From NCBI GenBank assembly GCA_024762925.1, contig JANTGM010000013.1, forward strand, positions 1 through 64,000: 64,000 nt of DNA, given 5' to 3'. The DNA comes from Kofleriaceae bacterium (lineage in GTDB: Bacteria > Myxococcota_A > Polyangia > Haliangiales > Haliangiaceae). Under the pieces are notes generated by a model. That model saw nothing but the letters and a program-made list of their open reading frames with translations. It searched no databases and was not told where the DNA came from. Positions 52,462 to 64,000 of this stretch are shown here, in pieces. The translations under genes and the position numbers were made by a program. Each line of letters starts with the position of its first letter. Position 1 is the first letter of the stretch.

Positions 52462-53802
52462 ATGAAAGCCCTGTATCAAACCATCACTCCCCTCGTCGCG
52501 CTCGCTCTGGCAGCGCTGACCGGCTGCCCCGCCACGAGTGACGAAGTTCGCCCACCAGACGATCAGTTCTTCTTCCCAACCGGCATGGCAATTGACGAAG
52601 GGCAGGGCTCGCTATTTGTCTCTAGTGCCAACTCCGATCTCCGCTACGACTCGGGCACCATCACCATTGTCAATCTTGATCGCGTCGAAGAACTCTTAGG
52701 CGGATGGTTGAGCGGTGGCCAGCTTCCTGCTGGAGCTGATTGCGAAGCTGATAACACCATTGCCACAACCCTTGTTTGCAACGAAGCCGAGGCGATTGTG
52801 GCGAGCTCCAGTGTTCGCATTGGCAACTTCGCCACCGAAATCGGAGTGCAGGCTCTCGACGATGGGACTGCGCGCTTGTTTGCCGCCGTTCGCGGTGATC
52901 CTTCACTAACCTGGATCGACTTTAATCCTGCCTCTCGGGAACTTGAGTGCGGTGGTAGCGGCTCGATGCCCCGCTGCGATCAGGACCACCGGCTAAATCG
53001 ACTACGCAATGATGAATCGGTTGGCAATCTACCACCAGAGCCGTTTGGCATCTACGTCGATAGTGCCGATGGTTTTGTCATCTTGACCCACCTCACACAG
53101 GGCGCGGTCTCGCTAACCGACGCACCAACCGATGGCAGCCCACCCGTTGTCGCAGATGCTATTGGTGGCGTCTTTGACGCCGACCCGCTCACCGGAGCAC
53201 GAAGCGCTCTTGGGGCTGCCGCACGGACTCCAGGTGGGCGCGTGTATGTGACATCGAGTTCAGAAGAGCGTGTTCAGATATTCACGGTTGCGCGAGCGGG
53301 CAATGCGCTTCCATCGCTGGTGCCCTCAGACTTTTTCTTTCTCCGCGATGTCCTACCATCCGATGACAGCCGAGGGATTCGCTTTGGTGGCGATGGCGAT
53401 GTCGCCTACATCCTCAATCGCTCGCCCGCGGTTCTCCAAGTTCTCGATACATCAATTCGCTCCACGGGACAGCCCAGCAATGCGCTTTCACAGGTTGTTG
53501 AAATCTGCCCAAATGCTTCCAACTTGGCAGTGGGCGATATGGGAGCTGGCGACCGTGTGTACGTGACCTGTTTTCGCGAAGGTCAGGTCTGGGTTCTCGA
53601 TCCGATTGGGGGGGGAGTCGATGCGATTATTGATGTTGGCCGAGGACCTCAAGCCCTCGCGATTTCCGAGGACAACCAGAAACTCTACGTGACGAACTTT
53701 CTTGAAGACACTGTGGCCGTCGTTGACCTGGAGGTCGCATCTCCGACCGAGAACAGAGTTGTTCTTAAGCTTGGCCGAACCCGGCAGTCGGGAGGAAAGT
53801 AA
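52462..53802 (+). CDS. Beta-propeller (YVTN-like) lipoprotein
   Basis: A 446-residue lipoprotein started at ATG 52462; upstream ATGs fall in the end of ppdK or lack a signal peptide. The lipobox is Leu-Thr-Gly-Cys (Cys22). The mature part is a beta-propeller of repeated blades, with YVTN-type strands such as GGRVYVTSSSEERVQIFTV, DRVYVTCFREGQVWVLDP and NQKLYVTNFLEDTVAVVDL. Four to six Cys residues may form disulfides. It should be at the cell surface or in the periplasm. Its stop overlaps the start of the next, larger lipoprotein (TAATG), so the two are made together and probably interact. Confidence 0.82.
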   Translation: MKALYQTITPLVALALAALTGCPATSDEVRPPDDQFFFPTGMAIDEGQGSLFVSSANSDLRYDSGTITIVNLDRVEELLGGWLSGGQLPAGADCEADNTIATTLVCNEAEAIVASSSVRIGNFATEIGVQALDDGTARLFAAVRGDPSLTWIDFNPASRELECGGSGSMPRCDQDHRLNRLRNDESVGNLPPEPFGIYVDSADGFVILTHLTQGAVSLTDAPTDGSPPVVADAIGGVFDADPLTGARSALGAAARTPGGRVYVTSSSEERVQIFTVARAGNALPSLVPSDFFFLRDVLPSDDSRGIRFGGDGDVAYILNRSPAVLQVLDTSIRSTGQPSNALSQVVEICPNASNLAVGDMGAGDRVYVTCFREGQVWVLDPIGGGVDAIIDVGRGPQALAISEDNQKLYVTNFLEDTVAVVDLEVASPTENRVVLKLGRTRQSGGK

Positions 53803-56800
53803 TGCGTAGTCGCAATCAAATCGCTACGGGGATTGCTACCCTTGGGCTCATCGCAGTTGCTTGTGGGCAAGACCCAAATCCGCCACCGTTGCGCAATCTC
53901 AACCGTCCTTCGGAAATTGCCTTCGCGTGCTTTGGTGACCTCAATGTCAATGGAACGGCGATTACCAGCGCCCAGCCGCTGAGTTCTTGCGCCGCACACT
54001 TTGCTGGCGAGCCGCCACCGGGCCAGGAAAACATCATTGCTCCTAGCTACTTTGCATTCGTGTTGCAACCAGCAGAGGGCACGGTCGCGGTCATCAATGT
54101 TGCCGCAGAAGGCATCCAAGACAACGATCTGTTCACACCTGGACTCAACGACATTCCCGTGGGCACCTTGCCTGTGGGAATGGCAGAAGACCGAACCGGC
54201 TGTTTTGTGATCACTGCCAACTCAGGTAGCTGCGACCTTGCTTCAATCGACATGACGAGCGCCCTGAATCTTGGTGATGTCGCGCAGGTCAATCGTGTTG
54301 CGATCACAACTCCTGCCGGCGATGAACTTCTCGCTCGTCCGCGGAGTATCACCGCGGGGCCGCAAACCGATGTCATCGGGGAGGCTTGTCCGCTAGAAGC
54401 GGAAGGGCTGGTCTACATCACCTATCCTGACTGCAATCTTGTCGCTGTCGCGGATGCCGCTACGGGCGAAGTGCAATCGGGTCTGGCGTTTCGCGAGACA
54501 GGAATCGTCGAGGCTGCAACGGATGCGGACTTTGCAGCCTGCCCGGTCCAGTGCACCGATGGTTCGCTTGCACTTGCTCACGGGACCGAACCCGAAACCT
54601 TCGTCGAGAAACCGGTTGCTGTCGAAGTGTCCCCCGATGGCTTGAGCCTCTACGTCACAAGCGAGACAAGTCCATTCTTTACGATCGTCGAACTTGATGC
54701 TGACGGTTTGCCCACGGCCAATGTTCGCCGAATTCGCGTCGCACCAGATAGCGATGGCAACGATATTGGGCTTCGGAACTTCGCGGTTTCCGACCGCATC
54801 GATATGGGCGGCGATATCTACAACAGCATCGCGCTACCCATCGGCGAGTTTCAATTTGCCTACGCAATCGCAACCGACTCCACAATTCGCGTGATCGATA
54901 TCGAGCACAGCCAAGAATGCGACACACAGGTGGACCCACGGTTTTTGGTGGATGAAACCGACGTCGAGTTTCTCTCGTGCATGCCAGTTGGTGACCTCCG
55001 AACGCCACCGCGGCGGGTTGGAGCCAAGGGACCTGGCATCGAGCTTCCCGGACGATTTGATGAAGGCCGCAATGGCACAAGTGACTTGGCAGTTCCCTTA
55101 GACATCGCCTTTAGCACCTCGGAAGCACCAGACATTGGCACTCGTCCCGAGCAGCCCGAGCCAGATTCGATGGCTGGCAGCTTTGCGTTTGTCACCGCGT
55201 CGACAGGTCGAATCTTCGTTATCAACGTGGATGACGATGCGTACGCAGATGTCTATGATCCGGCCCAGCCGCTCGCCACCCAGCTGCCACTGGCGCTGCC
55301 GCATCAGTTGCGCGACAACATGCTCGGCCGAGCTTCGCTGTCGGAAAACTGCGGAGGCGCTCCCAACAGCAACGGAGGAGCCCGCGTAAACGGAGCTCCC
55401 TCTCAGATCATCGACCTAGCCCACATCGCAAACAGCAAGGTGCACGAGATGCCCTTCTTTCGCGGTCAGCGCTGCGAAGGCATGGATAGTCTTGGCAACC
55501 CAGTCAATAGCATCGTGACCGAGTTCTCTTTTGCCGCTGATGTGGAAACCCGAGCCACTACATTCCCCGACATTCGAGCGGTTGAAGACCAGAACTGGTC
55601 AATCGCCTGGGAAGGGGCACTGTCAGCGGATGCGCGAGGTACCGCTATCGATGGACCGGTGGTTCGGAAGGGGGTTGTTGTCCGCGACGGTGCAAAGGCG
55701 CAGCTAACCGATGCTGGGGCGCCATTTTGCGGGTTGGGGGTTGAGCCCTTCGACATCGTCTCCTTCATAGGCTGCAATCCGCTACTGGATGATGCGCAAT
55801 GTGGAGTTGGCGAGAGTTGCTACGTTCACCCTGACACCACAGCTGCTGTTCAAACCGGTGTCTGTTTTGCGGAAGACCGGGTTGATGCACTCTCTGGACC
55901 GTGTCGGGAGTTTCTCACGTCCCGCCGTCGATATAGCGTCAGTACAAGCGCCGCTGGCGAACTCGGGCTCATCGAGCGCCGCCGAGTCTTACGCACCAGC
56001 CCACTTGACGGCTGCGAATCCGCCACTCAGTGCGAAGGGCTCGCAGAACTCGAGCCACTGCTAGCATCGGACGCGCACCCCATCGAAGCAGACTTGCTCG
56101 ATCCAGAGCGCGACTTTGATTGGGTATGTGAGGCGGATCCGAGCCGAGCACCTGGAGTTGATCGCTGTCAGATGGCATGTGAGAGCGCCGAGGATTGCGA
56201 AGATGGATTCACCTGTGCAGGTCAGCGCTGTGTGGAAGCTGCGCTGCCCCCCGCAGAGTGCGTCGCTGCCATTCAGCGCTATCAGGTTTCGGTCGGCGAT
56301 GCCTTTGTGGTCTTGGGAGAGGATGATGGGTATGAATCCGCTCTGGTGGCCGAGCCAGGCACCGGCGAGTGCGTTCGTCCCGCAGATGCCAATCCGCTCG
56401 TCGCTGCTCGCATTCCCTTGCGCCCAGAGCCTTGCGACGATGATGACGACCCCTTAACCGGTCCGAATCCGTGCTCGACTACCGTGGCTCACGACGAAGA
56501 CTACATTCCCTTTGTTGTGGAAGACGGCCGTTGCATTGCTTTGGATGTGGCGCAGCGAACTCGGCAAGCGCCTGCAGTTCGCTTTCAGAATGCCGCCCTA
56601 CAGTTCCACCTCGTGGATTCAGAGACGAGAGGGGACTTGGAATGCCGAGCAGATAAGGCCGGAGAGGGACCCGCATTTGGGACAACATTTGCCGGCTACC
56701 AATTGCTCTTTGAGATCACCAACGGCTTTGCGCCAAAGATTGTTGTCTTGGTGACTGCGCTGCCGAATCGCATCATTCCCGGGCCCTCGGGCAACCTCTG

Positions 56801-56903
56801 GATCGTCGATCAGGGCGATTCTTCATCGTTCGATCGAGGCAGGGTCATTCGAATCAATCCACGGGCCCCGGCTTCGGGCTTCGATCGCACGACGTTTCAA
56901 TAG
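53802..56903 (+). CDS. Giant surface lipoprotein with propeller-like and cysteine-rich parts
   Basis: A 1033-residue protein with lipobox Val-Ala-Cys (Cys21). The first 600 residues or so carry propeller-like repeats (TVAVINVAAEG..., LVAVADAATGEVQSG, GLSLYVTSETSPFFTIVELD). The C-terminal third is Cys-rich, with a small module CQMACESAEDCEDGFTCAG seen in many myxobacterial lipoproteins. It has more than 30 Cys in total, so extensive disulfides are expected. No enzyme motif is visible. It is coupled to the preceding propeller lipoprotein by a 1-bp overlap. Function is unknown; adhesion or surface binding is a guess. Confidence 0.75.
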   Translation: MRSRNQIATGIATLGLIAVACGQDPNPPPLRNLNRPSEIAFACFGDLNVNGTAITSAQPLSSCAAHFAGEPPPGQENIIAPSYFAFVLQPAEGTVAVINVAAEGIQDNDLFTPGLNDIPVGTLPVGMAEDRTGCFVITANSGSCDLASIDMTSALNLGDVAQVNRVAITTPAGDELLARPRSITAGPQTDVIGEACPLEAEGLVYITYPDCNLVAVADAATGEVQSGLAFRETGIVEAATDADFAACPVQCTDGSLALAHGTEPETFVEKPVAVEVSPDGLSLYVTSETSPFFTIVELDADGLPTANVRRIRVAPDSDGNDIGLRNFAVSDRIDMGGDIYNSIALPIGEFQFAYAIATDSTIRVIDIEHSQECDTQVDPRFLVDETDVEFLSCMPVGDLRTPPRRVGAKGPGIELPGRFDEGRNGTSDLAVPLDIAFSTSEAPDIGTRPEQPEPDSMAGSFAFVTASTGRIFVINVDDDAYADVYDPAQPLATQLPLALPHQLRDNMLGRASLSENCGGAPNSNGGARVNGAPSQIIDLAHIANSKVHEMPFFRGQRCEGMDSLGNPVNSIVTEFSFAADVETRATTFPDIRAVEDQNWSIAWEGALSADARGTAIDGPVVRKGVVVRDGAKAQLTDAGAPFCGLGVEPFDIVSFIGCNPLLDDAQCGVGESCYVHPDTTAAVQTGVCFAEDRVDALSGPCREFLTSRRRYSVSTSAAGELGLIERRRVLRTSPLDGCESATQCEGLAELEPLLASDAHPIEADLLDPERDFDWVCEADPSRAPGVDRCQMACESAEDCEDGFTCAGQRCVEAALPPAECVAAIQRYQVSVGDAFVVLGEDDGYESALVAEPGTGECVRPADANPLVAARIPLRPEPCDDDDDPLTGPNPCSTTVAHDEDYIPFVVEDGRCIALDVAQRTRQAPAVRFQNAALQFHLVDSETRGDLECRADKAGEGPAFGTTFAGYQLLFEITNGFAPKIVVLVTALPNRIIPGPSGNLWIVDQGDSSSFDRGRVIRINPRAPASGFDRTTFQ

Positions 56904-60604: not shown

Positions 60605-62803
60605 TTGAAGAACACAACATACAGAATCGCATTTTCTGCACTGCTCGGTCTCGCAGGTACAAGCCTAGCGGCCTGCGGCAGCGGCAGTACACAAGGTCCA
60701 TTGGATGAGGTCGACTCGATCGTCTTCATCGAACGGCAAAGCCGAATGGGGGGCATGGGAGACATCTTCCAATACGACTCCTATGAAGCTGGCGCCAAAC
60801 TCGTGAAGCTCTCACCACCCACTGCGGATGGCGAGCGGATCGTAATCTGCTGCGACCAGGATCCTGAGTACGCAGACCTCGACATCATCGACTACGACCT
60901 TTCGTATGACGCCAAGACGATTGTCCTATCGGGCCGTCTGTCGCAGGACCAAAAATATGGTCTTTTCACTCTGGACGTCGATAGCGGCGACATCGAGCAG
61001 CTACCAACGGATCCAGATTCTCACTACGTCTACCCAACCATTCTTCCTGGTGACCGCGTTCTTTTCGCAACCACAGCAGTTGTTGAAGAAGGTGCACCGC
61101 AATTCCGCGACGAGTATGAGCGAGGAACCACCCTTCAGCTGGGAAGCATCGCCATGGACGGTAGCGACGAGAAGCTCTTCTCTCGAAACCTCTCTCACCG
61201 CATCACAACCACCGTGTTGTCCACCGGTGAAGTTCTCGTCACACAGTGGGACCACTTGAACACGATGAACGCTGGTCTTCTCCTCAGGATGAATCCAGAC
61301 GGAACTCGCGTACGAGAGGCCTTCGGCAAGCAGGGGACTGGAGCAACGAACTCGTACTACAAGACGGTCGAGATTTCTCCGGGCCGCGTTGTTGCCATCG
61401 GTAGCTCACGCTCACGTACCTTCCAATCCGGCGCCATTCTCGACATTCGCCTTGGCGAGACCTACGAGACAGAAGACGGCGAGATTTGGGCCGATCAGAA
61501 GATGTCTGAGGCAAACGCTTCGGCGAAGATTCTTACCGCTCAGGTCCCTCTTGGACGCGAGCCTTCCTCCAACACGGTTGGTCGCTACTACAACGCCTAC
61601 CCATTGGACGCTACCGAGTACCCCAACTTTCTTGTGAGCTGGGCTGATGGTCCTGTTCAGTCCGAAGTCAACGGTGCTGCTGGCATCGCTCCAGACTTCG
61701 GCATCTACCTTTACGACTCGGAGAAGGGCAGCCGCCTTCCCATCTACGACAAAGAGGGAACGTGGGAAATCAACCCAATGCCACTTGTTGCTCGTGAAGC
61801 TCCACCTACCATCGCTGCAACCGGTGCAAACCAGTTCTCTGATGAGAAGGTTCTTCTCGGTGCCATGGACGTCTACGACTCCTCGGTTCAAGACTTCGAC
61901 CCAGGCAGTATCTACGGTGTTCGCATCGTAGAAGGCTTCTCTGGTGAAGAAGGCGTTGGCATGGACTTTGGTCTATCGATGGCTGAAGGTGCTCAGACTC
62001 TGGGTATCGCTCCAATTCGCGAAGACGGTTCTTGGGCTGCTCTGATTCCCGCAAACATCCCAGTTCGCCAAATTGCTATCGACAAGTTTGGTATGGGGCT
62101 TCGCCACGAGCCAGTATGGATTTCTGGTAACCCTGGCGAGTCGATGTTTTGCGGTGGTTGTCACGAGAGCCGCTCCGAGACCACAACCATTCAGCCTGGT
62201 CTCACCGAGGCTGTCGCAATCGGGCCTGTCGATCTGCTCAGCGATGTTGGTCGTTTCGAGCGCCAAACCACTGGCAACTTTGCAGACGCCAACATTGGTG
62301 TCCCCTGGGACCTCGCTCTTCAGCCCATCTTCGACGCCAAGTGCGTAGCTTGTCACGATGGTGACCCCAACAAGCCAGGCAACCCTTCAATGACGATCAC
62401 CGATGATGAGGGTAACTCTCAAACCATCGTCTTCAACCTCAGCGGCGACGAAGTCTTCTACGGAAACGGCGAAGAGATGGTCTCTGGTTACAGCGCTTCA
62501 CACCTCTCTCTTCTCGGTCCAGACATGGAAGATGTCGAAGACCTAGGTCTCACAATCGAAGGAGACATGCCTATCTACGTCGAGCCTGAGAACGCGGTTG
62601 GATCAATCCTCATCCAGAAGCTGAACCCACCTGTCCAGTACCCAACACCAAACCTAAACGAGCGAGCATTCCCAACGGTTTCTCACCCAGCGGATGTCGG
62701 TGGCACCCCACTCACCGCTGGCGAGTACCGCCTCCTTATCGAGATGGCCGACAACGGTGGCCAATTCTACTCTCGTGAAAATGCTCCTGGTCAAAACCCA
62801 TAA
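60605..62803 (+). CDS. HzsA-related di-haem c-type cytochrome lipoprotein
   Basis: A 732-residue lipoprotein from a TTG start that has a strong ribosome-binding site (AGGAGG 8 bp upstream). The lipobox is Leu-Ala-Ala-Cys (Cys24). The first 450 residues or so look like a TolB-type beta-propeller. The middle part (IPANIPVRQIAIDKFGMG... NPGESMFCGGCHE) matches the domain shared with hydrazine synthase alpha subunits. There are two haem-c motifs, CGGCH (516-520) and CVACH (580-584). True hydrazine synthase needs partner subunits that are absent here, so it is more likely a surface or periplasmic electron-transfer or binding protein. Codon use becomes strongly biased, suggesting high expression. 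A HEAT protein follows 16 bp later. Confidence 0.82.
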   Translation: MKNTTYRIAFSALLGLAGTSLAACGSGSTQGPLDEVDSIVFIERQSRMGGMGDIFQYDSYEAGAKLVKLSPPTADGERIVICCDQDPEYADLDIIDYDLSYDAKTIVLSGRLSQDQKYGLFTLDVDSGDIEQLPTDPDSHYVYPTILPGDRVLFATTAVVEEGAPQFRDEYERGTTLQLGSIAMDGSDEKLFSRNLSHRITTTVLSTGEVLVTQWDHLNTMNAGLLLRMNPDGTRVREAFGKQGTGATNSYYKTVEISPGRVVAIGSSRSRTFQSGAILDIRLGETYETEDGEIWADQKMSEANASAKILTAQVPLGREPSSNTVGRYYNAYPLDATEYPNFLVSWADGPVQSEVNGAAGIAPDFGIYLYDSEKGSRLPIYDKEGTWEINPMPLVAREAPPTIAATGANQFSDEKVLLGAMDVYDSSVQDFDPGSIYGVRIVEGFSGEEGVGMDFGLSMAEGAQTLGIAPIREDGSWAALIPANIPVRQIAIDKFGMGLRHEPVWISGNPGESMFCGGCHESRSETTTIQPGLTEAVAIGPVDLLSDVGRFERQTTGNFADANIGVPWDLALQPIFDAKCVACHDGDPNKPGNPSMTITDDEGNSQTIVFNLSGDEVFYGNGEEMVSGYSASHLSLLGPDMEDVEDLGLTIEGDMPIYVEPENAVGSILIQKLNPPVQYPTPNLNERAFPTVSHPADVGGTPLTAGEYRLLIEMADNGGQFYSRENAPGQNP

Positions 62804-62819
62804 GAAAGGAACGACGACA

Positions 62820-63674
62820 ATGTTAGGAACAAAAATGATTCGTAATGCTCTTATCGCTGCCGCTTGTACCTTCACGGTTCTCGGCGCAATTCCCGAGGCC
62901 AACGCTGGACGAGGCGGTTCTCCTGGAACCATCCGCTCCGCTATCCGAAGCAACAATGCAGATGCCATCGTCGCTGCTCTTGAGCAGGCTGAGAACATTC
63001 CCTGCAACAGTGATTGCATGGGAATGGTAATGGACCTTCTCGACAATGACGACTACCGAGTTCGTCAGGTCGCATCTTGGTGGTTCGCTCGTCGCCCCGC
63101 GCAGATGAAAGAAGTTGCAGAACTGGCAACGGCTTGGCTCACAACGGGCTCTTCAACAGATGCACGCAATGGTGCAGACATCCTTGGAACGTTTGGCTAC
63201 GCCAAGCACATCGCAACGTTGACAACGGCTTCTCAGAAGAGTGGTTTGGATGCACCTGCACGGGCAGCGATTGTCAAAGCTCTAGGCGACATTGCCAACA
63301 AATCGGCCAATGCGACTGTTGCAACTGCGATGACTGATTCGGATGCAAGTGTTCGTCTGAGTGCGGTGACGGCTTGGAAGAACATGCTAAAGCAGAACAG
63401 TGCTGAGCCGGTTGTCGCTCTTGTGAGTGATAGTGATGTTCAAGTGCGCCGCGCTGCGATCTCTACAGTCGGCAAGTTCCGATCGGCAGATGCACGAGTC
63501 GCTCTTGAGGCCGCCCTTGCAAGTGATGCCGACTCTGCGGTGCGGCGAAATGCCGCTTGGGCGCTTGGGCGAATTGGAGATGCTGCTAGTCGTGAAGTGC
63601 TTCGCGCCGCTATCGATGACCCATCATCTCTTGTGCGAACGACTGCCAAAGTGGCTATGGGCAAGCTCCGCTAG
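62820..63674 (+). CDS. Exported HEAT-repeat protein
   Basis: A 284-residue protein started at ATG 62820, with ribosome-binding site AAGGA; a longer frame overlapping the upstream gene is noise. The signal peptide ends Ala-Asn-Ala (residue 29). The mature part is six or so HEAT/PBS-lyase-type helical repeats (DSDASVRLSAVTAWK, DSDVQVRRAAISTVGKF, DADSAVRRNAAWALGRIGD, DPSSLVRTTAKVAMGKL), a protein-binding scaffold. One Cys pair near residue 62 could form a disulfide. It lies 16 bp after the HzsA-related gene and probably interacts with it. Confidence 0.88.
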   Translation: MLGTKMIRNALIAAACTFTVLGAIPEANAGRGGSPGTIRSAIRSNNADAIVAALEQAENIPCNSDCMGMVMDLLDNDDYRVRQVASWWFARRPAQMKEVAELATAWLTTGSSTDARNGADILGTFGYAKHIATLTTASQKSGLDAPARAAIVKALGDIANKSANATVATAMTDSDASVRLSAVTAWKNMLKQNSAEPVVALVSDSDVQVRRAAISTVGKFRSADARVALEAALASDADSAVRRNAAWALGRIGDAASREVLRAAIDDPSSLVRTTAKVAMGKLR

Positions 63675-63697
63675 CGCTCACGCTCTCTCCTCCTAAC

Positions 63698-63732
63698 GGG
63701 CGGCTTGTGGACATCATGTCTGCAAGTCGCCC
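63698..63732 (+). terminator. Long hairpin after the HEAT gene, possible terminator
   Basis: GGGCGGCTTG (63698-63707) pairs with CAAGTCGCCC (63723-63732), nine Watson-Crick pairs and one G-T, and GACA/TGTC extend the stem inside. No T-run follows, so it may be a processing site or attenuator instead. Confidence 0.5.
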
Positions 63733-63778
63733 TCCGGCGTTTGAAAGCGCTTCCCAACAGAAGCAGCTTTTGAGACCT

Positions 63779-63807
63779 TTGTTACTACGCTCTTGCTACG
63801 CTATGAC
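63779..63807 (+). promoter_or_regulatory. Candidate promoter of the lipoprotein gene at the window end
   Basis: TTGTTA (63779-63784) and TATGAC (63802-63807) are 17 bp apart, about 26 bp before the ATG at 63833. This is a weak match. Confidence 0.3.
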
Positions 63808-63832
63808 CTAACATTGCCAATGGGGTATCGAT

Positions 63833-64000
63833 ATGGCTGCAAAATTTAGAACTACGTTTGTTCTTAGCTCGTGTGCACTTGGTGCAACTCTTATCGGCGC
63901 GTGTGGCTCCGATGCACCTAGGCAGACCTACTACGAACGGGAGATTGAGCCAATCTTAGTTGCATCCTGTTCGGGCAACACGGGTGGCTGTCACATTGTT
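63833..64000 (+). CDS. Lipoprotein with a Cys...CysHis motif, cut by the window end
   Basis: The first 56 residues of a lipoprotein (ATG 63833, open to the last base). The signal peptide ends Leu-Ile-Gly-Ala-Cys (Cys24). The mature part begins with YYEREIEPILVASCSGNTGGCH, the style of planctomycete-type cytochrome c domains, where a Cys and a CysHis pair bind haem. Here six residues separate the two Cys, so the motif is non-standard. It continues the theme of the two preceding genes. Total length and further domains cannot be seen. Confidence 0.7.
   Translation, partial: MAAKFRTTFVLSSCALGATLIGACGSDAPRQTYYEREIEPILVASCSGNTGGCHIV

Follow-up and report, generated by a model that had tools for sequence, protein, structure and literature searches.

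An obligate three-gene module in Myxococcota encoding two HzsA-related putative cytochromes and an exported HEAT-repeat protein

Structure of the locus

The DNA studied here, referred to as the window, comprises the first 64,000 nucleotides of contig JANTGM010000013.1 from a Kofleriaceae bacterium (GCA_024762925.1), and its right-hand end carries three consecutive genes on the forward strand, here called A, H and B. Gene A (60605..62803) encodes a 732-aa lipoprotein with a six-bladed propeller, an HZS_alpha middle domain and a C-terminal cytochrome c domain; gene H (62820..63674), which starts 16 bp past the stop codon of A, encodes a 284-aa exported HEAT-repeat protein; and gene B, from position 63833, encodes a 987-aa lipoprotein. 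The window, in whose coordinates all positions are given unless otherwise stated, holds only the first 56 codons of B (63833..64000), and the gene was read on into the same 85-kb contig (C13, locus label L004), where it ends at contig position 66796 (L004:3834-6797). A reading made earlier from the window sequence alone (the sequence-only reading) had described a 732-residue lipoprotein with a propeller, the HzsA middle domain and two CxxCH sites, an exported HEAT protein 16 bp behind it and a third lipoprotein starting with a cytochrome-like motif, and had supposed that the module runs past the window edge. All of this was borne out, and the third gene proved to encode another member of the HzsA family, in which four putative haem sites are present. 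Hydrazine synthase, of which HzsA is the alpha subunit, is the enzyme making hydrazine in anaerobic ammonium-oxidizing (anammox) bacteria.

Gene A has a TTG start codon with a GGAGGAG ribosome-binding site immediately 5' of it. Site conservation was assessed in alignments of 42 A, 35 B and 32 HEAT sequences; the cysteine of the A lipobox (LAAC, Cys24) is present in 39 of the 42. The sole Pfam domain of A above its cut-off is HZS_alpha (PF18582; 61961..62167, residues 453-521), which scored 42.5 bits (E 1e-10) against a curated cut-off of 26.6 bits, in agreement with the HzsA assignment made from the sequence alone; PSCyt domains, for which the sequence-only reading had suggested a search, were reported in none of the three proteins by the Pfam scan. 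AlphaFold models were compared with known folds by Foldseek and VIA-align. The model of A (mean predicted local distance difference test score, pLDDT, 82; 42 sequences) matched the whole HzsA chain of Kuenenia stuttgartiensis (PDB 5C2V) with a Foldseek E of 5.4e-27, and residues 21-729 could be aligned with residues 33-802 of 5c2v_A over 574 residues (Z 31.1, root-mean-square deviation (rmsd) 4.8 Å). The next-best folds, TolB propellers, lay well below HzsA at Z ~24, and the A profile matched HzsA with an E of 1.5e-20.

A contains exactly two CxxCH sites. The haem I motif, C516GGCH520 (62150..62164), closes the HZS_alpha domain and has CX2CH spacing in 42 of 42 sequences; the haem II motif, C580VACH584 (62342..62356), is invariant in C, C and H, with CX2CH in 39 sequences and CX4CH in three. 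Roles have been assigned in HzsA to His587, Tyr591 (iron ligand, haem alpha-I), Cys303 (zinc) and His772 (distal, haem alpha-II) (PMC12758564, PMC12607021). By profile, His694 of A (62684..62686), invariant in all 42 sequences, is aligned with the histidine of LLHNK in HzsA (chain position 745 + 27 = 772) and thus corresponds to alpha-His772. A candidate axial ligand of haem I is offered by the propeller motif NLSHR...TQWDHLG (61196..61255), which includes His198 and His217. Both are invariant in the 42 sequences; in further A genes His217 is always kept (W-D/E-H), and position 198 is Asn in one (L153).

The same genome encodes a third HZS_alpha protein (L005:7803-10097, contig C104) of 764 aa, with 29.6 bits, a WDHL motif and a single CxxCH (CAACH); an apparent penicillin-acylase-type gene lies beside it on the other strand.

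Protein B consists of three tandem C-X4-8-CH...HxGG domains followed by a PD40/HzsA-type propeller and middle domain. Its HZS_alpha match is borderline (26.9 bits in the genome search and 23.7 in the protein scan, against the cut-off of 26.6), and its relationship to the family was assessed at two further levels. Profile comparison showed A and B to be homologous (E 2.7e-29), and a model of the L086 copy, which comes from the same genus, shares 77% identity (mean pLDDT 83.6) and provides the residue numbers used for B unless stated otherwise, aligned over positions 324-995 with HzsA 30-622 (5c2v_D; Z 32.7, rmsd 3.8, 473 residues aligned). The C-terminal haem domain of HzsA has no counterpart in B, and the three N-terminal domains stand in its place. 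These are mutually homologous (E 2.4e-13 for D2-D3, 8.1e-8 for D1-D3 and 2.5e-5 for D1-D2), and their HxGG histidines coincide in the longer alignments (D1-D3 and D2-D3). The first C...CH site, C46-SGNTGG-C53-H54 in the window copy (63968..63994; SCSGNTGGCH), is the cytochrome-like motif noticed previously, and its C, C and H are invariant in the 35 sequences. Its spacing is CX6CH in 23 sequences and CX8CH in 12, that of the second and third sites is CX4CH in all 35, and the fourth site is CX2CH. Outside these sites B has exactly four invariant histidines (126, 259, 378 and 650). The lipobox cysteine is kept in 35 of 35 sequences.

Are the C...CH motifs haem sites at all? All six are invariant in C, C and H across the 42 A and 35 B sequences, and we infer that A and B would bind haem covalently at these CXnCH motifs; cytochrome c assembly genes are present in the genome (PF01578 on three contigs). 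Alternatively, A and B could be PD40 propeller lipoproteins for binding or adhesion, with the motif cysteines engaged in structural disulfides. Several more invariant or near-invariant cysteines of B have a disulfide-like appearance, the TolB-like propeller match is good and the spacing at the first B site is variable, all of which would suit such proteins. However, the motif-final histidine is kept in every relative at all six motifs, and both A sites, together with the distal ligand (His772 in HzsA), align with those of HzsA, with haem I in the same domain. TolB/PD40 propellers share the fold of A and B (Z ~24-27) but have no haem domains, whereas the propeller here is joined to one. We consider this alternative improbable.

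Conservation of the gene triad

The next question is whether the three genes form a unit or happen to lie together on one contig. In 20 of 20 neighbourhoods from related genomes, they follow one another in the order A-HEAT-B on one strand. A wider scan with one genome per species (GTDB) yielded 55 loci, all metagenome-derived and nearly all titled Myxococcota or Deltaproteobacteria. The HEAT gene adjoins A on the same strand in all 52 loci with room for it (the other three end earlier), and B is next in order in 43 of 45 loci long enough to show it, even where identity falls to ~30%; the adjacency on which the sequence-only reading relied is thus conserved in Myxococcota. At the two loci without an adjacent B, A and HEAT are still together, and two B genes sit elsewhere in those genomes.

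Gene content gave the same picture. Among 237 genomes drawn evenly across the phylum, A, HEAT and full-length B were each found in an identical set of 19 and in none of the remaining 218. These 19 genomes span six families, with A and HEAT in single copy, and in families f14 and f16 some members have none of the three genes. It is clear that the triad is gained or lost as a unit. The combinatorial chance of this co-occurrence, ~2e-28, ignores kinship and is unusable as a probability because the genomes are kin. The flanks vary by family, with mutS in loci of the Kofleriaceae type and other genes in Polyangiaceae, which indicates that the triad itself is the unit. In other genomes, solitary full-length B genes with no A or HEAT nearby were detected (L141, L142, L143, L144, L145, L147, L148 and L149), and since these extra genes stand alone, a duplicated B can persist separately from the triad. 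The obligate three-gene module, a variant of the HzsA-related cytochromes carried by some Myxococcota of soil and water, is real, and the invariance of its sites over 35-42 relatives and the conserved gene order show that it exceeds chance; its function, as read from sequence and models, is putative.

Relationship to hydrazine synthase and its homologues

A has both haem positions of HzsA and the His772 counterpart. The fold that the whole of A and B 324-995 share with HzsA, together with the HZS_alpha domain, could be taken to mean that the triad is an unrecognised hydrazine synthase. This is exceedingly improbable. Against the NCBIfam HzsA equivalog (NF052339, cut-off 800), A scored 28.9 bits and B 23.6 bits. 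In the profile alignment, A reads CGGCH----ExR where HzsA has CSGCHYGSYRGR, so that the gap falls at YGSY after CSGCH, and B reads CGGCHGSVSG at its haem motif; counterparts of Tyr591 and Ser590 are missing in both. None of the cysteines in the propeller of A reaches 70% conservation among the 42 sequences, and a counterpart of the zinc ligand Cys303 is therefore missing as well; a propeller-only profile aimed at Cys303 and run against the PDB returned repeat-protein noise only. Cys303 is, however, not universal even among anammox bacteria (PMC12758564).

The partner genes of hydrazine synthase did not appear beside the triad either. The contig has no match to CCP_MauG (gamma-like), of which there are nine elsewhere in the genome, and no beta-like gene was recognised among the triad neighbours, although beta was not searched for by model. 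B was considered as a beta-gamma equivalent and rejected, as its sequence and fold match HzsA rather than CCP. In addition, A and B are predicted lipoproteins, whereas HzsA is soluble. The missing residues, the equivalog score and the lack of partner genes on the contig rule out hydrazine synthase proper; the triad almost certainly makes no hydrazine, to judge from its sequences, and the view of the sequence-only reading that the family must do something else is upheld.

HzsA-type proteins outside anammox bacteria have been described before. Planctomycetota and Desulfobacterota have distant HZS-alpha homologues, with over 600 structural hits reported, and non-anammox clades I-IV include Planctomycetota, Syntrophobacter fumaroxidans and Paludibaculum; in these homologues Tyr591, Cys303 and His772 are lost, beta-gamma genes are co-localised and, in clades I-II, an FG-GAP gene lies between the alpha and beta-gamma genes (PMC12758564). 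The triad belongs to the same family and is missing the same hydrazine-synthase residues (Tyr591 and Cys303), and its layout resembles that of clades I-II in placing a repeat protein between haem proteins. Nevertheless, three differences are evident. The partner in clades I-IV is beta-gamma (propeller and CCP-like), whereas here another protein of alpha type, extended by three cytochrome domains, takes that place; the middle gene encodes a HEAT protein with CxxC rather than FG-GAP; and the His772 counterpart, lost there, is kept in 42 of 42 A sequences. The sequence-only reading had called the module a candidate unexplored one. Given the published work on HzsA-alpha homologues outside anammox, the family is better explored than this suggests, although Myxococcota are not mentioned in the text of PMC12758564, and our search, which did not extend to subscription papers, found no literature on HzsA-related proteins or the triad in Myxococcota.

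The HEAT-repeat protein

The product of gene H has a Sec-type signal peptide and matches HEAT_2 with 84.7 bits. Two cysteines, Cys62 and Cys66 (63003..63017), are invariant in the 32 sequences, with CX2C spacing in 30 and CX3C in two, the window copy being one of the latter, and no other cysteine of the protein is conserved. Such a pair makes it conceivable that HEAT, a scaffold in the sequence-only reading, instead serves specifically in maturation and is no structural subunit, its CxxC keeping the CX4-8CH cysteines of B reduced or presenting them to a haem lyase. The pair recalls CcmH, the gene sits between both cytochrome genes, and atypical motifs in other bacteria depend on factors of their own, among them CXXC proteins and helical-repeat chaperones (PMC6976685, PMC3601427). 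Like HEAT, the proteins CcmH/CcmI, NrfF/NrfG and SirG are exported, helical or helical-repeat and serve cytochromes, with CXXC in the CcmH type (PMC6976685, PMC3601427); unlike it, they are built of TPR or a three-helix bundle, and a sequence relation to them was not found. On the other hand, HEAT is tied more tightly to A, with its mainly standard CxxCH motifs, than to B: the extra B copies have no adjacent HEAT gene, and A and HEAT remain together where B has moved, although the protein might act in trans. CX4CH sites are not known to require special factors, which also speaks against maturation. We regard a maturation role as somewhat unlikely; it would not conflict with A and B transferring electrons. 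The invariant CxxC beside CX4-8CH motifs gives a lead to a haem-attachment or complex-assembly factor.

The best NCBIfam matches of the HEAT protein are the bilin-handling HEAT proteins NblB (53.2 bits) and CpcE (33.7 bits), both far under cut-off. They probably reflect shared repeats and nothing further; NblB and CpcE handle tetrapyrroles as well. A second exported HEAT-repeat protein (67.5 bits) is encoded at L004:18848-19681, ~12 kb past the 3' end of gene B.

A putative envelope electron-transfer complex

What, then, could an HzsA-type pair do without making hydrazine? Our favoured reading, held with moderate confidence, is that the three proteins are obligate components of a single electron-transferring c-type cytochrome complex, which would carry several haems and be bound to the envelope. 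As any genome with one of the three has all of them, a single envelope complex is the most likely arrangement. The number of invariant histidines moreover equals the number of haem motifs: B has four sites and four other invariant histidines, and A has two sites, with His694 and His217 always kept. An invariant candidate sixth ligand for each haem, combined with the loss of the hydrazine-synthase ligands, points to an electron-transfer unit and not to a hydrazine-making enzyme.

In such a complex, two diverged copies of the HzsA architecture, A with two putative haems and B with four, would be held in the membrane as lipoproteins, and the exported HEAT alpha-solenoid would lie between or around both. 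Electrons would enter or leave via the three N-terminal haems of B, pass between these and the haem that lies where the HZS_alpha domain and the propeller of B meet, and from there move to or from the haem pair of A. All six haems might be bis-His-ligated, low-spin carriers: B would have a line of three, A would have one in its C-terminal domain, and each protein would have one more at the boundary of propeller and middle domain. Of the surface position proposed in the sequence-only reading, the lipoprotein anchoring of A and B is what their predicted lipoboxes support. The envelope site is probably the outer membrane. Lipobox position +2 holds Gly or Ser in the majority of A copies and is less uniform in B; it does not decide between the membranes and has no bearing on surface exposure. 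An outer-membrane barrel gene, as in an MtrCAB-type conduit, was not constantly linked to the triad, barrels encoded elsewhere not having been searched for.

The propeller of A invites a different interpretation, namely that A is an enzyme whose haem I acts on a small nitrogen or oxygen compound (nitric oxide, hydroxylamine or peroxide), with B as its electron partner, as gamma is for alpha in hydrazine synthase. The whole-chain HzsA fold, the conservation of haem alpha-II with its distal histidine and the strong conservation of propeller residues D169, E170, Y171, H198, W215, H217 and R269 are in keeping with catalysis. The absence of Tyr591/Ser590 and Cys303 counterparts is not, non-anammox homologues without the same residues were judged unable to make hydrazine (PMC12758564), and the invariant spare histidine for haem I argues for a closed site. 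An enzymatic A is, in our estimation, unlikely.

Several points weigh against the electron-transfer complex itself. His198, Asp169, Glu170 and Tyr171 are invariant in the 42 A sequences, a degree of conservation that simple wiring would not demand. Haem motifs of the CX6CH and CX8CH type are uncommon, and these sites could be disulfides or bind other metals; the bis-His ligation suggested for the six putative haems is read from invariance. All six triad families belong to one phylum, and co-inheritance inflates the co-occurrence; finally, additional B copies exist without A or HEAT. A more far-reaching version of the proposal, in which the triad is an undescribed envelope redox complex formed by a hetero-dimer of two HzsA-type cytochromes with six haems, and its own HEAT CxxC factor installs or protects haem at CX4CH, CX6CH and CX8CH and so represents a new cytochrome maturation class, appears to us quite doubtful.

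The origin of hydrazine synthase and the role of its non-anammox relatives are open questions. The triad forms a clearly delimited, obligate system of three proteins, where the alpha architecture occurs twice and, unlike in the published homologues, the distal haem ligand is kept; with three defined genes, the question of what an HzsA-type protein does without making hydrazine becomes testable.

Neighbouring genes

Two groups of neighbours were considered as further members of the module and rejected. The upstream MutS and SPOR genes were ruled out as partners, since Polyangiaceae triads have other neighbours. A 311-aa exported protein (L004:6862-7797), which frequently follows the triad and has no family match in Pfam or NCBIfam scans, was not accepted as a fourth member, because several relatives have its gene in another position or on the other strand. 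A promoter scan gave fewer matches than were obtained in shuffled sequence. Upstream of the SPOR and mutS genes, the window also encodes a 1033-aa cysteine-rich lipoprotein (53802-56903), whose position is kept in some of the relatives (L071 and L073).

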